Shown piece after piece: positions 7,661-42,801 of a stretch of 64,000 nt of DNA. Within the stretch, counting starts at the first letter, position 1; the number at the start of each line of letters is the position of its first letter. Location: assembly GCA_032821775.1 (NCBI GenBank), contig JAVLRN010000003.1, forward strand, positions 3,162,001-3,226,000. Direction: 5' to 3'. Made by a program: the position numbers and the translations under genes. This stretch comes from Sanguinoderma infundibulare (Eukaryota; Basidiomycota; Agaricomycetes; Polyporales; Polyporaceae). The notes beneath the pieces are model-generated. The model was given only the letters and a program-made list of their open reading frames with translations. It had not been told where the DNA came from and did no database searches.

Positions 7661-8354
7661 CTGGACGAGCATCAAACACACCTGGTTTCTGGCAGTTTAA
7701 CGTTCAGCATACATTCACGCGCGACACTCGGCATACGGCATACGGCGCTGGGTACACGACATCATCTATAGAACGCATTCATTCATCTTCATCTTTTTCC
7801 CCACACCTAAGTCATTCTCTGTCCATCTCCGCACATACCTGCGCTTCATAGCCTTTCCATGCCTCAACTTTCACACGGCCGGACGACGCGCATACTAACC
7901 GACCGCGATCCGTTCGCGCTTCCGGCAGGATTGTGAGTCCAGAACTCGAGCAGGACTTCTGCACAAACTTGCCACGTAGCTAACGCCTCACGGCATCACC
8001 ACAGTGTAAATTATTAGAGTACACATCTCGCTCGCTATGCTGTATAATGGTTGACTCGGATAGAAGAGAGGCTGACGGATATACATGCCGGCGTGGGCTA
8101 TGCAATCCTGGGCTTCGAAAAGTTGAGTCTACGACTGCGAACTTCGTGATACAAATATCGTAGGCTCAAATGGTAATCCAGTAGGCTGAGCCGACAACGT
8201 GGCGGCGCAATCAGGATCATATAGAGTGACCGCATCCGTCGAAGGGTGAGTGTTCAGTGGCGTTACCGCATCATATCTTGTTGAATACCGGGCTATGACC
8301 GCAGGTTGTCCTAGAGCTTGGATATGATCAATTTCTGCTAGACGGGGACGTCGA

Positions 8355-8361
8355 ATATATA
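8355..8361 (+). promoter_or_regulatory. TATA box of DUF6533 copy A
   Basis: ATATATA inside a block (TCGAATATATAG) shared with copies B and D, 70 bases upstream of the ATG. Conservation inside a diverged spacer supports a core promoter. Confidence 0.55.
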
Positions 8362-8424
8362 GTGGCAGTTAACTTGGGTGCCGTACCCTCCTCAGACAAC
8401 CCACCCTCTGCCTCTCTCCGAACC

Positions 8425-10238
8425 ATGTCGGATCCCAATAACGCTGCGTTGATCGACGAGGTTGATTCCGCGTGAGTGGTTCTCTGCAGCCATGTGACCT
8501 TCTTATACCTTCTCCTCTAGTCAAATAGAAAATTACTTCCTCGCAGTCGCTGCCGGTGAGTGTGCCACAGATTCTGTCTCAGACTCAGCGTGGCGGCATT
8601 CGTTCTGATGTCATCGTCGATGCTGGATAGCCCTTATGGTGTACGAGTTCACGATCACCTTCGACAAAGAGGTCGAGCTCTTTTGGCGGCGGAAATTTAC
8701 CGTCTCGTCCATCTTATTTTTCCTCAACCGTTATGTACCCTTGGCAGTCAACGTGTTGAGAGGGCCATGGCCTAACCCAACGACTCTTGCGGTGCGTGCT
8801 ATTACTTTCTGTCATCCATGCCTGTCAAACTCACATGGTCGCAGAGGTAAGGGATTGGCACGTCTCTGAACAGCACCTTTGGGGCTCACCTAGAACCTAG
8901 CTGTAAAACATTCGGATGGACCCAAGTGATCCTGGAGATCTTTCAATATGTTCCCTGGGCTGGTACGCATCATTCACTAACTTTATATCCTTAACCGCAT
9001 CTACTTTGACACTTTCTCATGTCTCAACAAGCGTTCTCTGGCATACGAGCCTACGCCCTCAGCGGTCGGAGGTGGGTGATCGCCGCCTTCGTCTTCATAC
9101 TCTCTCTCGCACCTGTGGTCATAAACTACGTAAGTCTCACAGGGATCGAGAGGTTTATTGCGGTGGTGAGACCGACACACTCGCGTCTACAGATGAATAT
9201 GGGCTATACAACTATCTTCAATGACCCCGACGTCGGCTGTGGTGCAAATGTCAAGCTCTCTGATGCCATACAGCGCGAGTAGGTCTGATATTGTAAAAAA
9301 TGGTAGACATACTGATACAGTGGATCACTTCTGCTTTAGTTGTACGTACCATCTATACCCAGGTTTTGCAATGCAGTGTGCCAAAGCTCAAGTTCGCGTC
9401 TCCTATTCTATCCAGTCGCGATCGTTTCTCGAGTTGGTCTCATCGCATCGGATCTGCTGGTCGTAGCCATCACTTGGGCTGGAACATACAAGAATGCCAG
9501 GGAGATGAAGTTGCTGGGCCAAAGCACATCGCTGTCAAGCGTCCTCTTCAGGAATGGTAAGCAAAACAGTGATCACTCGGCATAAATCACTGTATTCAAC
9601 ATTTCATTGCTAGGTGTCATGTACTTCATGTACTATGTCCTCCCAGAACCCTTTCCATCTCGTGCTGACTTCGTTCCAGCGTCCTGTTGATCATGAACCT
9701 CCTCCACCTGACGTTCTCCCTGTCTACAGTATGTCCAAACATCAGCGGATTTCCTTTTTACCCGTGCTCAAGTTCCATGTAGATCCTAGTCAACAATGGT
9801 GCTGGTAATGCGAGCAACATCGTAACCTTAATCGAACCGTACGTCTGCCACCCCAGCGGCGTCTTCTTCTCTTTCCCATAATTTGTCCCAGCTCATTGGT
9901 CATCCCCCGTACCTGCGTACAGAATAACCGCCATCCTCATCTCACGCTTCTTCTTTGACCTCGAAGAAGCCGCCAAAGGCAACGCCCACCAGCACTCCCT
10001 CTCGTCTGTTCAGATTCGCAGCCTCAAGTTCAATGCGGTTCTCGGCTCCCTCACTTCTTCGCTTCCCGCCCCAGGGGAAGTTAGCCCGGAGCATGAAGCA
10101 CTCGACGTCAGCTCGGATTCTTCCATCGCCGAAGAAGACAGAGTGAACTTGGAATCGGGGTTGGACGACCGCATTCCCAGTTCAGACCCAGAGGGAGCCG
10201 ATGGACAGGCATCCTCGAGCACGGCCAATTCGTGCTGA
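8425..10238 (+). CDS. DUF6533-type multi-pass membrane protein, copy A (12 exons)
   Basis: Predicted 373 residues. Exons: 8425-8471, 8521-8555, 8631-8791, 8845-8846, 8901-8962, 9032-9129, 9193-9278, 9363-9556, 9614-9629, 9680-9728, 9783-9838, 9923-10238. The N-terminal domain carries the family pattern TFDKEVELFW followed by LFFLNRYVPL. About seven hydrophobic segments follow (for example FVFILSLAPVVINY and DLLVVAITW), then SRFFFDLEEA and an acidic Ser-rich cytosolic tail. Exon 4 is only two bases (AG); without it the conserved upstream and downstream frames cannot join. The frame is open throughout and a TATA box lies 70 bases upstream, so the gene may work. Function is unknown; members are predicted plasma-membrane proteins of mushroom-forming fungi. 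The weakest site is the donor after 9629. Confidence 0.8.
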
Positions 10239-11959
10239 TCGTTGCACAGGTGTGCCATACCTCGTTCTACCCGCGAACATTGCGGTTCACGACCTCGGTC
10301 TATTGATGTACACTAGACGTCGTAGTTCTTGGTAGATATGGCATGCACGCTGGTCCCGAAGGTGCTAGACTCGTGTTCACACTTATCCTCGAGATGACCG
10401 GAATGCGCTAGATGGAAATGTGTTTCTGTCCGTGTTATCCCCCAGTATAGAGTTTTCTTGGGTGGCTGCTCTGAATGACCACATAACTGATGGCAGGCCT
10501 GTGCGCTTTAGAATACAATCCCTTCTTGTCAATTCGAGCGCGAGCGCTGTGTGTGTGTGGGTCCCCTTGCGGCTCACTTGTAGGGGCCGTGAGAAGGGCC
10601 GGGTTGAGTTGTGGCATACAGATAGTATATCCCTTTTGCGGCGTAGTTATAGTTCAGTACGTATTGTGGACCGCACTGTTACTTTGGGCGGTCCTAATGA
10701 GTGGTTCTCCTCACGGGGATATACTATGAGTTATGGTAGGCTTCAAGTTACTACCAGCGTCAGGTCAGACTCGGAGTAGAAGTGCCAGTGAATCCCCCGC
10801 CCGTTGCTCGTCGTCTGAAAAACAGGTGCTCAGGGCCGAGAAAAATGGTCAACATGAAGCACTGGGAGGAGGATGGCAACAAGGAAAGCGGTAGTGCGAC
10901 CCCGGGGTCGACCCTTCAACCGTTTCGGAACAGTATCGGGCTCCGGATCCCGGGCCGTGCCATGTTTGCGGCACTGACCGAACCGAACTGAGTCCCACCT
11001 AACTCACCCACTCCCAATGCTTCCTTCAACTCGACCGTGCTGCCAACTCAAAGCCGCTCTTCGGGACCTGCTCCAAGGCGGCGTCATCTCAATTTCCGTC
11101 TAAGAGAGCGACAATCCCCGGATCTTCAAGACAACGCAGACGTACAAACGCCCACATTGCGGGGAACATTGCGCCTGGACCTGGAAATGAGGTCGACGAT
11201 CAGGACCAGGAGGTTTCGTCGATATTCCCCAGTACGGTGCCGTTATCCTATTCCCTGAATTCGTTCCAAACACCTTAACACGTGGATGACCTTGATGCGG
11301 GATTCCAGTTGTGTCATTCCGAGAGCATCAGCACAACACTGACCGGCCACCGTAACATACGCACATCTTCATGACAGTTATGCGGGCCAGCCATTCAAAC
11401 CTTCATGCGTACCATATAATGCCGCATCCGAGCCTGATCGATGATCACGGTGTCGTGGTATCTGTAATTGTGCCCCGAGATTCCGACCTTGAACCCTTCC
11501 CTCACCAAGCGAATCCCACTTTCGAGCTCGATTCAAGGGACAGTGACCCTCGAGTAAGTCGCCATTACAACGCTCGCTGGATTCCTCAAATCACAACGGC
11601 ATTGCGACTGTCCTCGAACACTTACACGCCCGTCATACACCCACACATGCCGACGCCGACCCCGCTCACAGCGACCATCAAGGACGACTCCGACATCGTC
11701 TGGCCACCGGCACGCCAGGGTTCCCAGATGCGTGTCCCACTCTCTGAATGGGCCAACGACGCCCGCGCGGTCGAAATGGTGTTGGGAGAAGCTCAAAGAG
11801 CAGGGCTCGACGCCCGGGGCGAGCTCCACGCTCACCGCTGCGTCACGCGCAGGGCTCGCGTTTCACCTCTGGAACTGGTACGGCACCACAGTCATGCACC
11901 AGGCGTTCCCCTCACACGCGTGGGCGACGTCGCAACGATCATGGCGCACCACGTTCAGA
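10239..11959. other. Shared 3' flank of copy A, then poorly conserved DNA
   Basis: 10239-10590 is the conserved 3' flank of the repeat. 10590-11959 holds broken frames only. A short match around 11040 (CTGCCAACTCAAAGCCG) resembles 6570-6586, so remnants of upstream gene X exons may extend here, but no gene model is supported. Confidence 0.4.
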
Positions 11960-12286: not shown

Positions 12287-12944
12287 CTGGACGAGCATCA
12301 AACATACCTGGCTTCGGGCAGTTCAGCATACATTCCACACGCGACACTCGGCATACAGCATACAGCATCCGGCGCACGAAAACATCTATAAAATGCATTC
12401 ATTCATCTTCATCTTCTTCCCATACCTAATGAATTCATCTCCGCACATACCTACGCTCCATATTCCCACCCCAGCACTTGTTGACGACGCGGATACGGAC
12501 CGCGATCCGTTCGCAGTTCCACTTCCGGCAGGATTGTGAGTCCAGAAATCGAGCAGAACTGATTCACCATCCAATAGCTAACCGTTCACAGCATCATTAC
12601 ATCGTAAATTATTAGAATACACATCTCGCTCGCTATGCGGTATAATGATTGACTCAGATAGAAGAGATGGTGGCGGAGATGCATGCCGGCGTGGGCTATG
12701 CAATCCTGGGCTTCGAAAAGTTGAGTCTACGACTGCGAACTTCGTGATACAAATATCGTAGGCACAAGTGGCATTCCAGTAGACTGAGCCGACAACGTGG
12801 CGGTGCAATCTTGATATAGAGTGACCGCATGCGTGGAACGGTGAACGGTGTTCAGTGGCGTTACTGCATGTTGAACACCGGGCTATAACCGCAGGTTGTC
12901 CTAGAGCTTGGATATGATCGACTTCTGCTAGATGGGGGCGTCGA

Positions 12945-12951
12945 ATATATA
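12945..12951 (+). promoter_or_regulatory. TATA box of DUF6533 copy B
   Basis: ATATATA in the same TCGAATATATAG block as copy A, 56 bases before the ATG at 13001. The shorter distance reflects deletions in the leader. Confidence 0.5.
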
Positions 12952-13000
12952 GCGGGAGTTGACTTTGGTGCCGTGCTCGCTCTCCAACTCTCTCTGAACC

Positions 13001-14826
13001 ATGTCGAATTCCGATAATGCCGCGCTCGTCGCTGATATTGATTCTATGTGAGTGGTTCTCTGCAGCTTTGTGATCTCCTTATACCTTCTCCTCTAGTCAA
13101 ATAGCAGCTTGGTTCCAAACAATCGCTGCCGGTGAGTGTGCCGCAGATTCTGTCTCAGACTCATCGTGGGCGGGTTCGGGCTGATGTCATTGTCGATGCT
13201 GGGTAGCCCTTATGGTGTACGAGTTCGCGATCACCTTCGACAAAGAGGTCGAGCTTTTCTGGAGGCGTAGAGTTACCGTCTCGGCCGTCCTATTTTTCCT
13301 CAACCGTTATGTGCCCTTGGCATATAATGTGTTCGGAGGGCCATGGCCTAACCCAATGACTTTTGCGGTGCGTGCTATTCCTTTCTGTCATCCATGGCTG
13401 CCAAGCTCACATGGTCGCAGAGGTAAGGGTTTGGCACGTCTCCGAACAGCACCTTCTGGGCTCACCTAGAATGCAGCTGTAAATCATACTTTTGGAGTGT
13501 AGAGATCGTGAACATCTTCCAATACCTTCCCTGGGCCAGTACGCACCCGGATTGGCTAGCTTTTCGTCCTTCACAGTATCTATGTTGACGATTTCCTATG
13601 TCTCAACAAGCGTTCTCTGCCTTACGAGCCTACGCGCTCAGCGGTCGGAGATGGGCGATCGCCGCCTTCGTCTTCATACTCTCTCTCGCACCTGTGACGG
13701 TCTTAAACTATGTAAGTCTCACAAGGATTGAGAGGTTGATTGCGGTGGTGAGACTGACACACTCGCGTCTAATGAGGTGATTATAGGCTATACAGCTATC
13801 TTCGTAGACCCCGACTTCGGCTGTACATCAGAGGTCAAGCTTACCGATGTCTTACAGCACGAGTGAGTATGGTACTGCAAGAACAATCAGGCATACTGAT
13901 ACAGTGGAACACTTCTGCTTTAGTTGTACGTACCATCTATACCCAGGTTTTGCGATGTGGTGTGCCACAACTCAAGTCCGCGTCTCCTATGCTATCCAGT
14001 CGTGATCGTTGCCCGAGTTTGTCTCGTCACATCAGATCTGCTGGTGGTAACCATCACTTGGGCCGAAACGTACAAGAATGCCAGGGAGATGAAGTTGCTG
14101 GGCCAAACCACATCGCTGTCAAGGGTCCTCTTCAGGAATGGTAAGCAAAACAGTGATCATTCGGCATAAATCATGTTATTCAGCGTTTCATTGCTAGGTG
14201 TCATATACTTCATGTATGTCCTCCTAGAACCCTTTCTATCTCGGGCTGACTTCGTTCCAGCGTCCTGTTGGTCATGAACCTCCTCCACCTGACGTTCTCC
14301 GTGTCTTCAGTAAGTTTAAAGGTCAGCGGATTTCCTTGTTCAATACCCGTGCTCAAGTTTCATGTAGATCCTGGTCAGCGGCGGACCCAACGTTGTGTCC
14401 GCGAGCAACATCGTATTCCTTACCGAACCGTACGTCTGCCCCAGCGCTGCCTCTTCTCTTTCCAATAATCATAGCCCAACTCATTGGTCATCCTCCACAC
14501 TTATGTACAGAATAACCGCCATCCTCATCTCACGTTTCCTCATCGATCTCCAAGAAGCTGCCAACGGCAACGCCAACCAGCACTCCCTCCCGTCTGTCCA
14601 GATTGGCAGCCTCAAGTTCAATGAGGTTCTCGGCTCCATCACTTCTTCGCTTCCCGCCCCAGGGGAAGTAAGCCCGGAGCATGAAACAATCGACGCCAGC
14701 TCGGATCCCTCCATCGCCGAGGAAGACAGCCCGAACTTGGAATCGGGGTTGGACGATCCCAATGCCAGCTCAGACCCGGAGGCAACCAATGGACAGGCAT
14801 CCTCCAGCGCGGTCAATTCGCGCTGA
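13001..14826 (+). CDS. DUF6533-type multi-pass membrane protein, copy B
   Basis: Paralog of copy A with the same exon plan and an open predicted frame of similar length. The N-terminal motif reads TFDKEVELFWRRRVTV then LFFLNRYVPLAYNVFG. The 2-base exon is 13421-13422, between introns 13368-13420 (53 bases) and 13423-13476 (54 bases). The exon after the NY donor must start at GTG 13780 (acceptor ATGAG), because the site used in copy A is gone; the next AG would bring a stop. The C-terminal part (AILISRFLIDLQEAANGN) and acidic tail end at TGA 14824-14826. No disabling change was found. Function unknown. Confidence 0.78.
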
Positions 14827-15356
14827 TCGTCGCACAGGTGTGCCATACCTCGCTCTAACCGCGAAGATTGCGGCTTACGTCCTTGGTCTACAGATGTATG
14901 CTAGATGTTGTCGTACTTGGTGGATTCTGGCATGCCACGCTGCTCACGAAGCTGTTAGACTCGTGTTCGCACCGCGGAGTGGAATACGCTAGATGGAGCG
15001 CGTGGTATCTTCCGATTGCGACTCTGTTCTCTAACTAGTGTAGAGTTTTCTTGGATGACTGCTCTGAATGACCATATAACTTATGGCAGGCTGTTGCGCT
15101 TTGGAAATACAAACCCTTCGTGCCAATTCGAGCGAGAGCACTGCGTCTGTGTGATTCGTCTCGGGTCCCCGTCAAAGAGGCCATGCCCTCCCAGTTCCAG
15201 TACAATAGCGCTGCAACACCGTGCACATCGACGACGACGACCCTGTCCTACCATTTACAATACATTCTCCTAATGATACACATAGCATCGATGACGTGCA
15301 ATTGGAAAGCGATGATCAGCGACTTGCGTTCCGAATTCTGCGCCCACGCAGACCTT

Positions 15357-22984: not shown

Positions 22985-25900
22985 GATTGGAAAACACTGT
23001 ATACATACACATGACGCTTCCATGCCGAATTGACAAGAAGCCTTTGTATTCCAACCGCACCAGCCTGTCATAAGTTATATCGTCATTCAGAACAGCCGTC
23101 CAAGAAAACTCAATACTAGAGAACAGAGCCACATTCGAAAGACACCACACGTTCCATCTAGCGTATTCCACTCCGCGGTGCGAACACGAGTCTAACAGCT
23201 TCGCGACCAGCGCGCATGCCAGAATCTACCAAGTACGACAACATCTAGCGTACATCTGTAGACCGAGGACGTGAGCCGCAATCTTCGCGGTCAGAGCGAG
23301 GTATGGCACACCTGTGCAACGATCAGCACGGATTGACCGCGCTCGAGGATGCCTGTCCATTGGCTGCCTCCGGGTCTGGACTGGGATTGGGATCGTCCAA
23401 CCCCGACTCCAAATTCGTGGCGAGTCCCTCGGCGATGGAAGGATCCGAGCTGACGTCGAGTGCTTCATGCTCCGAGCTAACTTCCCCTGGGGCGGGAAGC
23501 AAAGAAGTGATGGAGCCGAGAACCCCATTGAACTCGAGACTGCCAATCCGGACAGACGAGAGGGAGTGCTGGTTGGCGTTGCCGTTGGCAGCTTCTTGGA
23601 GATCAAAAAAGAAGCGCGAGACGAGGATGGCGGTTATTCTGCGCATAGGTGCGGAGGATAATCAATGAGTTGGGACATCATTACGGGAACGAGAAGAAGG
23701 CGGCGCTGGGGCAGACGTACGGTTCGGTAAGGAATATGATGTTGCTCACGCTATCAGCGTGGACGTTGCCGTCGACTAGGATCTACATGGAAGTTGAGCA
23801 CGGGTAATAAGGAAATCCACTGACGTGTAGACGTACCATAAACAGGGAGAACGTCAGGTGGAGGAGGTTCATGATCAGCAGGACGCTGGAACGAAGTCAG
23901 CCCGAGATAGAAAGGGTTCTAGGAGGACATACATGAAGTAGATGACACCTAGCAATGAAATGTTGAATAACATGATTTATGCCTAATGATCACTGTTTTG
24001 CTTACCATTCCTGAAGAGGACCATTGACAGTGACGTGCTTTGACCCAGCAGCTTCATCTCCCTGGCATTCTTGTACGTTCCGGCCCAAGTGATGGCTACG
24101 ACCAGCAGATCCGACGCGATAAGACAAACTCGAGAAACGATCAAGACTGGATAGAATAGGAAACACGGACTTCAGTTACGGCACACGGCATTGCAAAAAC
24201 TGCCAATAGATGGTACGTACATACGGTACGACTAAAGCAAAGATGTTCCATTATATCAGTATGCCTGCCTTGCCTTACAATATCATACCCACCCTAGCTG
24301 TACAGCATCAGAGGGCTTGAGCTCTGCCGTACAGCCGAAGTCGGGATCTTCAACGACGACTGTATAGCCCAGCCTCGTCTTTTGACGTGAGTGTGTCAGC
24401 TTCACCAACCGCAACGAACCTCTTTATACCTATGAGACTTACGTAGTTTATGACCACAGGTGCGAGTGAGAGAATGAAGACGAAAGCGGCGATCGCCCAT
24501 CGCCGACCACTGAGCGCGTAGGCTCGTAAGCCAGAGAACGCTTGTTGAGACATAGGAAGTTGTCAAAATAGATGCGGTTAAGGATATAAAGTTAGCGAAT
24601 GATGCGTACCGGCCCAGGGAACATATTGGAAGATTTCCACGATAAATTGGGTCCAAACGACGGAAATACAGCTGGGCTCTAGGTGAGCCCCGAAGGTACT
24701 GTTCGGAGACGTGCCAATGCCTTACCTCTGCGCTCATGTGAGTTCGGCAGCCATGGATGACAGAAAGTAATAGCATGCACCGCAAGAGTCGTTGGGCTAG
24801 GCAATGGTACATTATTTGCCAAGGGCACATAACGGTTGAGGAAAAACAGGATGGTCGAGACCGTAATTTTACGCTTCCAGAAGAGTTCGACCTCTTTGTC
24901 GAAGGTGATCGTGAATTTGTACACCATAAGGGCTATCCAGCATCGACGATGACATCAGAGCGAATGCCGCCACGCTGAGTCTGAGACAGAATCTGTGGCA
25001 CACTCACTGGCAGTGACTGTGACGAAGTAACTTGCTATTTGACTAGAGGAGAAGGTATAAGGACGTCACAGAGCTGCAGAGAACCACTCACATAGAATGA
25101 AAATCAGCGACGAGCGCGGCATTATCGGAATCCGACATGGTTCGGAGAGAGGCAGAGAGTGGCTTGTCTGAGGAGGGCACGGCACCCAAGTCAACTGCCA
25201 CTATATGTTCGCCGTCCCTATCCAGTAGAAGTCGTTGATGTCAAGGCTCCAGGACAACCTGCGGTTATAGTCCGTTGTTCAACAAGATATGTGGCACGAT
25301 GTAACTGACTACTTACCACACAGTGGATGAGGTCCTATCGGCGGAACCACATTCTGATTCCACCGCGACGTCTTCGGCTCAGTCTACGGGGGTTTGCTAC
25401 TCGTGCCTGTGATATTTGTATCGCGAAGACGGGAACGCTTCGCAGTCGTCAACTCCTCTTTTCGAAAACCACGATTTCATGGCCCACCACCAACATCCAT
25501 CTCCGCCAACCTCTCTTCTATCAGAGTCAATCATTATAACGCATGGCGAGCGAGATGTGTACTCTCATAATTTACACTGTGATGATGCTGTGAAGCGTTA
25601 GCTACGTGGTGAGTTTGTCCAGAAGTGCTCGAGTTCCAGACTCACAATCCTGCCGGAATCGCGAACGGATCGCGGTCCGTTAGTATACGCGTCGTCCGGC
25701 CGTGTGCAAGTCGAGGCATGGAAAGGCTATGAAGCGGAGGTATGTGCGTAGATGGACAGAGAATGCGTCAGGTGTGGGGGAAAAGATGAAGATGAATGAA
25801 TGTGTTCTATAGATGATGTGGTGTGCCGAGCGCCGTATGCGGAATGCCGTATGCCGAGTGTCGCGTGTGGAATGTGTGCAGAACGTTGAACTACCAGAAG

Positions 25901-40999: not shown

Positions 41000-42801
41000 T
41001 CAGCACGAATTGACCGCGCTCGAGGATGCCTGTCCATTGGCTGCCTCTGGGTCTGAACTGGGATTGGGGTCGTCCAACCCCGATTCCAAGTTCGGGCTCT
41101 CTTCCTCGGCGATGGAGGGATCCGAGCTGACGTCGAGTGCTTCATGCTCCGGGCTGGCTTCACCGGAGGCGGGGAGCAAAGAAGTGACGGAGCCGAGAAC
41201 CCCATTGAACTTGAGGCTGCCAATCTGGGCGGACGAGAGCGAGTGTTGGTGGGCGTTGCCGTTGGCGGCTTCTTGAAGGTCAAAGAAGAAGCGCGAGATG
41301 AGGATGGCCGTTATTCTGTATGCAGACGCGGAGGATGGGCAACGAGTTGAGACATCATGATGGGAAAGAGAAGAAGTCGATGCCTGGGACGGACGTACGG
41401 TTCGGTAAGGATTACAATGTTGCTCGTGTTCGAAGTGGTAGCGTTTTTGTCGACCAAGATCTACATGAAACTTGAGCACGGGTAATGAGGAAATCCGCTG
41501 AGGTTTAGAATTACAAAAGACAGGGAGAACGTCAGGTGAAGGATGTTCATGATCAGCAGGACGCTAGAATGGGGTCAGTACGAGATGGAAAGGGTTCTAG
41601 GAGGACATACATGAAGTACATGACACCTAGCAATGAAATGTTGAATAACATGATTTATGCCGAGTGATCACTGTTTTGCTTACCATTTCTGAAGAGGACC
41701 CTTGACAGTGATGTGCTTTGACCCAGCAACTTCATCTCCCTGGCATTCTTGTATGTCCCAGCCCAAGTGATGGCTACAGCCAGCAGATCCGATGCGATGA
41801 GACAAACTCGAGAAACGATCACAGCTGGATAGAGTAGGAGACGTGGACTTGAGTTCTGGCACACCGCATCAAAAACTGGCGATAGATGGTACGTACAACT
41901 AAAGCAGAGATGTTCCACCGTATCAGTATGTCTTCCATTTCTTACAATATCAGACCTACTCTTGCTGTACGACATCAGAGAGCTTCAACTCTCCATCACA
42001 GCCGAAGATGGGGTCTACGGAGAAAGTTGTATAGCCATACCTCGTCTGTAGACGCGAATCTCACCACCGCAATAAACTCTCGATCCCTGTGAGACTTACG
42101 TAGTTTATGACCACAGGCGCGAGAGAGAGTATGAAGACGAAGGCAGCGATCGCCCATCTCCGACCGCTGAGCGCGTAGGCTCGCAAGCTGGAGAATGCTT
42201 GTTGAGACATGGGAAATTGTCAAAATAGATGCGGTTAAGGATATAAATTTAGCGAATGATGCGTACCAGCCCAGGGAATATATTGGAAGTTCTCCAGGAT
42301 ACATTGGGTCCAAAGGATTGAAATACAGCTGGGTTCTAGCTGAGTCCCGAAGGTGCTGTTCGGAGACGCGCCCAATCCCTTACCTCTGCGACCATGTGAG
42401 TTTGGCAGCCATGGATGACAGAAATAGCACGCACCGCAAGAGTCATTGGGTCAGGCCATGGCCCTCCGAACACATTATATGCCAAGGGCACATAACGGTT
42501 AAGGAAAAATAGGATGGTCGAGACCGTAATTTTACGCTTCCAGAAGAGTTCGACCTCTTTGTCGAAGGTGATCGTGAACTCGTACACCATAAGGGCTATC
42601 CAGCATCGACGATGACATCAGGACGAATGCCGCCACGCTGAGTTTGAGACAGAATCTGTGGCATACTCACCGATAGCGACGGTTTGGAACCAAGCTTCTA
42701 TTTGACTAGAGGAGAAGGTATAAGGAGATCACAGAGCTACAAAGCACCACTCACATAGAATCAAATTCAGCGACGAGCGCGGCATTATCAAAATCCGACA
42801 T
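41000..42801 (-). pseudogene. DUF6533-type gene copy D, frameshifted
   Basis: Same exon plan as copies A-C from ATG 42801 to stop TGA 41000-41002, with the 2-base exon at 42384-42385 between introns 42386-42434 (49 bases) and 42329-42383 (55). The exon that opens FCNAV in copy A here starts TTTTTGATGCGGTG, two bases shorter, so the phase from the previous exon no longer fits and a stop follows at once (around 41873). All other exons are open and close to copy A (for example LIASDLLAVAITWAGTYKNA). An unusual splice site could in theory rescue it, but none is visible. Confidence 0.7.

Follow-up and report, generated by a model that had tools for sequence, protein, structure and literature searches.

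A predicted pair of two-nucleotide coding exons in the DUF6533 genes of Sanguinoderma infundibulare

Can an exon of only two nucleotides be a regular part of a protein-coding gene? The question is raised by a stretch of 64,000 nt from the genome of S. infundibulare (hereafter, the window), which contains four DUF6533 genes. The initial annotation had placed a 2-nt exon, AG, at positions 8845-8846 of the first of them (copy A), had seen the same block in all four copies and had considered the two bases necessary for the reading frame. Our analysis leads us to hold with high confidence that the DUF6533 genes of this genome share a plan of 12 introns and thirteen coding exons, two of which measure only 2 nt.

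Models with 13 exons fitted all four window genes best, and each is open from ATG to stop, with a length of 355-359 aa (355 aa in copy 24727 and 358 aa in copy 42385). All four exceed the Pfam cut-off of 24.1 bits for PF20151 (DUF6533), with scores of 54.4 (A), 50.3 (B), 47.1 (24727) and 52.3 (42385). The motif [CT]AG-AG-GTAAG occurs four times on the two strands of the window, at 8842(+), 13418(+), 24730(-) and 42388(-), each time inside a DUF6533 gene. The features are as follows, with exon 4 at site 1 and exon 8 at site 2.

8425..10238, + strand: copy A gene, 13 exons, 356 aa, ATG to stop
8845..8846, + strand: copy A exon 4 (site 1), 2 nt, AG; flanking introns of 53 and 54 nt; profile-guided model
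9340..9341, + strand: copy A exon 8 (site 2), 2 nt, TT; flanking introns of 61 and 74 nt
9614..9629, + strand: copy A exon 10, 16 nt, the third very small exon of this gene
13001..14826, + strand: copy B gene, 13 exons, 359 aa, ATG to stop
13421..13422, + strand: copy B exon 4, 2 nt, AG; flanking introns of 53 and 54 nt
13924..13925, + strand: copy B exon 8, 2 nt, TT; flanking introns of 61 and 74 nt
24726..24727, - strand: copy 24727 exon 4, 2 nt, AG; flanking introns of 53 and 54 nt
24230..24231, - strand: copy 24727 exon 8, 2 nt, TC; an 11-nt alternative is also in frame
42384..42385, - strand: copy 42385 exon 4, 2 nt, AG; flanking introns of 49 and 55 nt
41897..41898, - strand: copy 42385 exon 8, 2 nt, TT; flanking introns of 61 and 72 nt

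The models came from a spliced alignment of a protein profile against the DNA, in which any exon length was allowed and every intron was charged. They reproduced the AG exon of copy A with the position and splice sites originally described, the block in all four copies, and the intron pairs of 53 and 54 nt (A, B and 24727) and 49 and 55 nt (42385). What the initial annotation had underestimated was the extent: its single 2-nt exon per copy, in four copies, holds as exon 4, but the feature is family-wide and a second such exon, exon 8, had been overlooked. The modelled junctions of copy A are ...CTTGCG-AG-CTGTAAA... across exons 3-5 and ...CGCGA-TT-TCGCGATC... across exons 7-9; the TT of exon 8 yields the protein sequence QRD-F-AIVSR, which resembles QQN-F-TIISR in public proteins. 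In copy B, the alignment placed an extra 129-nt intron in the tail, which is superfluous for the ATG-to-stop model. Copy 24727 has a doubled donor region at site 2 (24230-24231, - strand), where the frame is kept with either 2 nt or 11 nt; the public profile alone chose 11 nt, and the public profile combined with our own models chose 2 nt. A zero-nucleotide recursive site, with an acceptor AG abutting a donor GT, was not found at the blocks; two bases that the frame needs lie between the two. By eye, copies A and B lie within two similar direct segments (8001-10240 and 12580-14840), with the upstream flank partly repeated.

The reading frame places a clear demand on both sites. With exon 3 ending in phase 0 and the following long exon beginning with N-TGY, 2 nt (mod 3) must be supplied if the GT donor is used. 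Exon 4 provides the first two bases of the codon preceding a conserved Cys, and exon 8 completes one codon with its first base and opens the following codon, usually that of Phe or Leu, with its second. When exon 4 was skipped, a stop followed after 1 (A), 1 (B), 69 (42385) and 62 (24727) codons, so the frame argument of the initial annotation applies to all four copies; when exon 8 was skipped, the stop followed after 77 (A), 127 (B), 101 (42385) and 78 (24727) codons. Across 60 units with the exon at site 1, skipping it led to a stop within 70 codons in 50. Since omission of either exon shifts the frame, both are needed for the full protein, and their inclusion looks obligatory.

The four window copies are close paralogues and therefore not independent, so that the weight of the argument comes from distant paralogues in the same genome. 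This genome (48.9 Mb in 87 contigs) has at least 150 PF20151 matches, found on scoring 150 of 243 candidates. We sampled 80 fetched stretches and two further loci, which gave 89 units out of the 150 matches. The profile consisted of 16 public proteins from other species and none from this genome; site 1 corresponds to profile position 85 (accepted range 82-95) and site 2 to position 169 (166-171). Among the units that span the respective site, the alignment placed a 2-nt exon in 60 of 83 for site 1 and in 65 of 80 for site 2, and 52 units have both. Exons shorter than 15 nt with any other length numbered only five among 976 (3, 6 and 11 nt at the two sites; 9 and 11 nt elsewhere). For copy A, the model with 12 introns and two 2-nt exons scored 328.7 bits, versus 304.8 bits for the best model without exons shorter than about 9 nt. 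Over the 53 units with a small exon at both sites, one of them with 11 nt at site 2, the corresponding gain had a median of 18.9 bits and a minimum of 3.5 bits. Among the 58 units scoring above 200, the exon was present at site 1 in 48 and at site 2 in 56; at the place of exon 10 (profile positions 217-222), both introns were counted 58 times in these units. When our own models were added to the profile, the counts became 67 of 89 (site 1), 71 of 89 (site 2) and 62 (both), although this profile is circular and served for sorting only.

These genes have diverged widely. Pairwise identity among the 52 proteins that have both sites ranges from 24 to 100% (median 38%), and 147 of the 1326 pairs fall below 30%. 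The bases at site 1 in the 60 units are AG (34), GG (15), AT (3), GA (2), AA (2), GC (2), CG (1) and GT (1), and those at site 2 in the 65 units are TT (26), AT (21), TC (7), GT (4), CT (2) and five others once each. The residue begun at site 2 is Phe in 43, Leu in 17, Val in 2, and Met, Cys and Ser in one each; Phe, Leu, Val or Met is thus found in 63 of 65.

We also applied a simple rule to site 1, which asks for an exon end in phase 0, then AG-NN-GT, and then a YAG-N-TGY exon open for 14 codons. It fits 67 of 89 units, of which at least one is spurious (C2:4076692, with a single intron) and another is doubtful (C2:2869699). The 22 units that it misses comprise 10 with a 2-nt block, where the acceptor differs (AAG, GAG) or the Cys is not at its place, 7 with a single intron, and 5 that are broken or unclear, including C13:481937, which gave no usable model. 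At site 1, the public-profile alignment in turn left 22 of 83 units without a 2-nt exon: 13 of these have the block according to the rule or inspection by eye (6 of them also in the own-profile alignment), 8 have a single intron, and one, C4:822301, is without the stretch. In several of these misses, the alignment had dropped the Cys and taken TGTAAG as the acceptor. Of the 13 misses among 80 units at site 2, three acquire the 2-nt exon under the own profile and three have a single intron (C2:3194260, C2:4076692 and C2:1148504). A further 21 matches, available as short stretches, showed the 2-nt exon at site 1 in 15 by script and in three by eye (L112, L113 and L117); two that look like alleles (L109 and L114) have a single intron, the two bases being joined to the upstream exon, and L104 has none. 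Site 1 was thus classified in 110 of the 150 matches as a 2-nt exon in 93, a single intron in 10 and broken or unclear in 7, a tally that mixes alignment, rule and eye, with 11 of the 93 resting on rule or eye and on neither alignment nor script. Part of the matches probably represent alleles located on separate contigs, which makes the number of genes smaller than that of matches. On C16, several matches are near-identical to ones on C6, as though C16 were an alternative haplotype.

A search of the genome for YAGAGGTAAGN{20,50}YAGCTGT gave 11 hits, versus none in the reversed control. One stretch (C7:696020-696240) carries YAG-AG-GTAAG...YAG-CTGT with no PF20151 match listed close upstream and may be a chance hit or another gene; no DUF6533 gene was recognized when the surroundings of the hit at C7:696141 were read. 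No relatives turned up in scans of viral_contigs and genome_contigs.

The paralogues with a single intron show where the two bases go when one flanking intron is missing. One phase-0 intron is present in C2:4076692 (...SLD-SCNVTTW..., with the bases fused downstream), C2:1659844 (...AND-SLCSVV...) and C2:1661706 (...SDQ-TCGRI...), and one phase-2 intron in C6:3015591 (...MTDK-KCALG..., with the bases fused upstream). The existence of both fused forms indicates that the two bases can belong to either neighbouring exon. Five loci on C2 (1646699, 1692132, 1681343, 1676149 and 1719513) form a subfamily that has a single phase-0 intron at site 1 and no Cys in the usual position; this condition could be either the older or a derived one. 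On a tree of 79 proteins from this genome and 4 public proteins, the states '2 nt' and 'single' require two changes at site 1 and four at site 2, though the tree is a quick one, with weak deep branches, several long rows and no inferred root. P0010 (Ganoderma) and P0017 and P0033 (Lentinus) fall inside the large 2-nt clade, and P0054 (Obba) falls outside. Because the Ganoderma and Lentinus proteins are nested among genes with 2-nt exons, the feature is probably older than the split from those genera.

As a control, we shuffled the stretch from the outer donor to the outer acceptor with dinucleotides kept. A 2-nt exon arose in 35 of 900 shuffles for site 1 and in 176 of 975 (18%) for site 2; real windows trimmed to equal size gave one in 59 of 60 and 59 of 65, respectively. 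Any exon shorter than 12 nt arose in 75 of 900 (site 1) and 346 of 975 (site 2). Some repair of the frame is therefore sought by the alignment at both sites in shuffled DNA; exons of 5, 8 and 11 nt also arise in shuffles, but almost never in real genes.

Could site 1 be explained without so small an exon? The first alternative is a single intron of about 107 nt that begins at a GC donor two bases further in. In copy A this reads ...GCG GT/gcgtgc ... ag/C TGT (slashes mark the cuts), which keeps the frame and replaces Ser with Val, and the donor is exactly the one used by the best copy A model without exons shorter than about 9 nt, which is complete and in frame (304.8 versus 328.7 bits). GC is found at this place in 22 of 60 units, including the window copies; however, it is missing in the other 38, which still have the 2-nt exon block. 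The intron would also be nearly twice the median of 59 nt, the single-intron paralogues have Ser, Thr, Leu or Lys and not Val before the Cys, and site 2 would be left unaddressed. We consider this reading very improbable overall; for the window copies, where the donor is available in frame, it stays a minor competitor. Other in-frame GT donors within 16 nt of the end of exon 3 occur in 29 of 60 units, which is about what chance would give (estimated from 11 positions at 1 in 16).

It is even less probable that these genes are decaying paralogues with frameshifts, in which the block is a leftover intron fragment. Decay certainly exists in the family: C3:3384993(+), C3:2957780(-), C4:822301(-) and C2:4483109(-) are plainly broken, being rearranged, truncated, without the micro-exon stretch or interrupted just after exon 3. 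However, the 13-exon models of the four window copies all read from ATG to stop without interruption, both sites are kept in proteins down to 24% identity, and three of four public proteins of other genera are nested among these proteins on the tree. Least probable of all is recursive splicing through a zero-length exon at AG/GT, with the block as a stepping stone that adds no bases: the block does resemble a back-to-back acceptor and donor and splicing is likely to be stepwise in any case, but joining the outer exons at those sites without the two bases breaks the frame in each of the four window copies, the identity of these bases follows the codon that they complete, and the single-intron paralogues keep coding bases there. 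The reading with 2-nt exons is backed by the profile-guided models and by dozens of diverged paralogues.

Public proteins from other species bear indirect traces of the 2-nt exons. We examined 61 public proteins (P0001-P0061); the 16 profile rows were excluded from the junction counts, as were P0065-P0097 (named NCBI records from a third protein search). Net indels of at least 3 aa were seen in 27 of 45 proteins at site 1 and in 33 of 44 at site 2, although the loop that contains site 1 varies in length, and some of the indels there may be natural. The eight other junctions gave 1 of 30, 0 of 34, 9 of 45, 9 of 45, 15 of 43, 14 of 42, 12 of 42 and 2 of 41. These counts suggest errors at two constant positions in many public DUF6533 proteins. 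P0062, P0063 and P0064 read through introns and thus derive from genomic DNA. After ...LS, the first two continue with V-S, 18 codons in all, and then with A-E-V or I-E-V, which is what gcAG-AG-GT or atAG-AG-GT would encode if these were the codons; P0064 has I-G-V one to two codons earlier. P0038 (353 aa, contig of 1279 nt) and P0051 (371 aa, contig of 1568 nt), both of them profile rows, are open through both sites, and since their full-length frames lie on contigs too short for a gene with 12 introns, they are probably cDNA. P0038 has only weak matches in the S. infundibulare genome (best E 5.9e-6), and so is without a clear orthologue there. Conservation of the micro-exons is therefore observed among the paralogues of one genome; for other species the traces are indirect and the exons are presumed to be present.

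How could such exons be spliced? Exons 4 and 8 would each be flanked by two ordinary GT-AG introns of normal length. The 887 model introns have a median of 59 nt (5-95% range, 49-84), and introns 3, 4, 7 and 8 have medians of 53, 54, 61 and 72 nt in the 52 two-site genes. For introns 3, 4 and 7, the branch-like motif CT.A[CT] had frequencies of 78, 82 and 92%, versus 38, 30 and 32% after shuffling, and for intron 8 it had 37 versus 33%; this enrichment is also missing from three ordinary introns. For introns 3, 4, 7 and 8, CT[AG]A[CT] gave 36, 32, 77 and 37%, versus 15, 14, 14 and 16%, and [CT]T.A[CT] gave 94, 88, 96 and 42%, versus 61, 51, 56 and 55%. From this enrichment, introns 3, 4 and 7 look able to splice alone, and intron 8 is mixed. 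Because a 2-nt exon could hardly hold two splicing complexes at once, we infer that the flanking introns are recognized through intron definition and are removed in succession. Once the first has been cut out, the two bases would already belong to a normal exon, and both 2-nt exons would be included in the mRNA. Successive removal of introns under intron definition has been proposed for APC11 (PMC4674806).

We also considered a broader speculation, which we regard as rather unlikely: the pair might be ancestral to most polypore DUF6533 genes, with about two hundred 2-nt exons per genome, and obligatory stepwise splicing might act as a built-in gate. If this were true, failure at either step would frameshift the transcript, and a family predicted to be receptor-like could be switched off through splicing efficiency.

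Little is understood about how the spliceosome handles exons as short as one to three bases, and the published cases that we found concern individual genes or small sets of genes. In the genome studied here, dozens of natural variants are available at the two sites, with differences in dinucleotides, splice-site strengths and intron lengths, together with sister genes that lack one flanking intron and have the bases joined to an adjacent exon. The order in which the introns are spliced, and the sequence needs, can thereby be tested directly.

Our literature search, which had most subscription papers outside its scope, found no fungal 2-nt exon and nothing on micro-exons and introns in the Agaricomycetes; the phrases '2 nt exon' and '2 bp exon' matched only papers on HLA-F and rare diseases in the text searched. 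Single-nucleotide exons are mentioned in the literature on fungal mitochondria. Four systems can be compared with ours. SNB1 of Coprinopsis cinerea, a protein with seven predicted transmembrane helices, shares the DUF6533 domain with the window copies (PMC10949477). Xlr2 of Trichoderma also has a micro-exon in a filamentous fungus, but its inclusion is reported to be regulated (PMC11121469), whereas that of the DUF6533 exons looks obligatory. The plant genes APC11 and VPS55 have 1-nt exons conserved over long times, and, as here, the ultra-short exon is subsumed in a larger exon in some relatives (PMC4674806, PMC8831610); however, these are 1-nt exons in one or a few copies in plants, as opposed to a pair per gene in a large paralogous family. 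A further parallel in fungi is CYP621A of Fusarium, whose single-nucleotide exon occurs in 20 members in Fusarium species and, as its authors report, is confirmed by RNA reads (PMC12940212). Both are ultra-short coding exons of a filamentous fungus that lie inside an apparent double-length intron, are needed for the frame and are hard for annotation. The CYP621A exon is 1 nt long and RNA-confirmed, whereas those of the DUF6533 genes are predicted to be 2 nt long and to occur twice per gene in dozens of paralogues of one genome.
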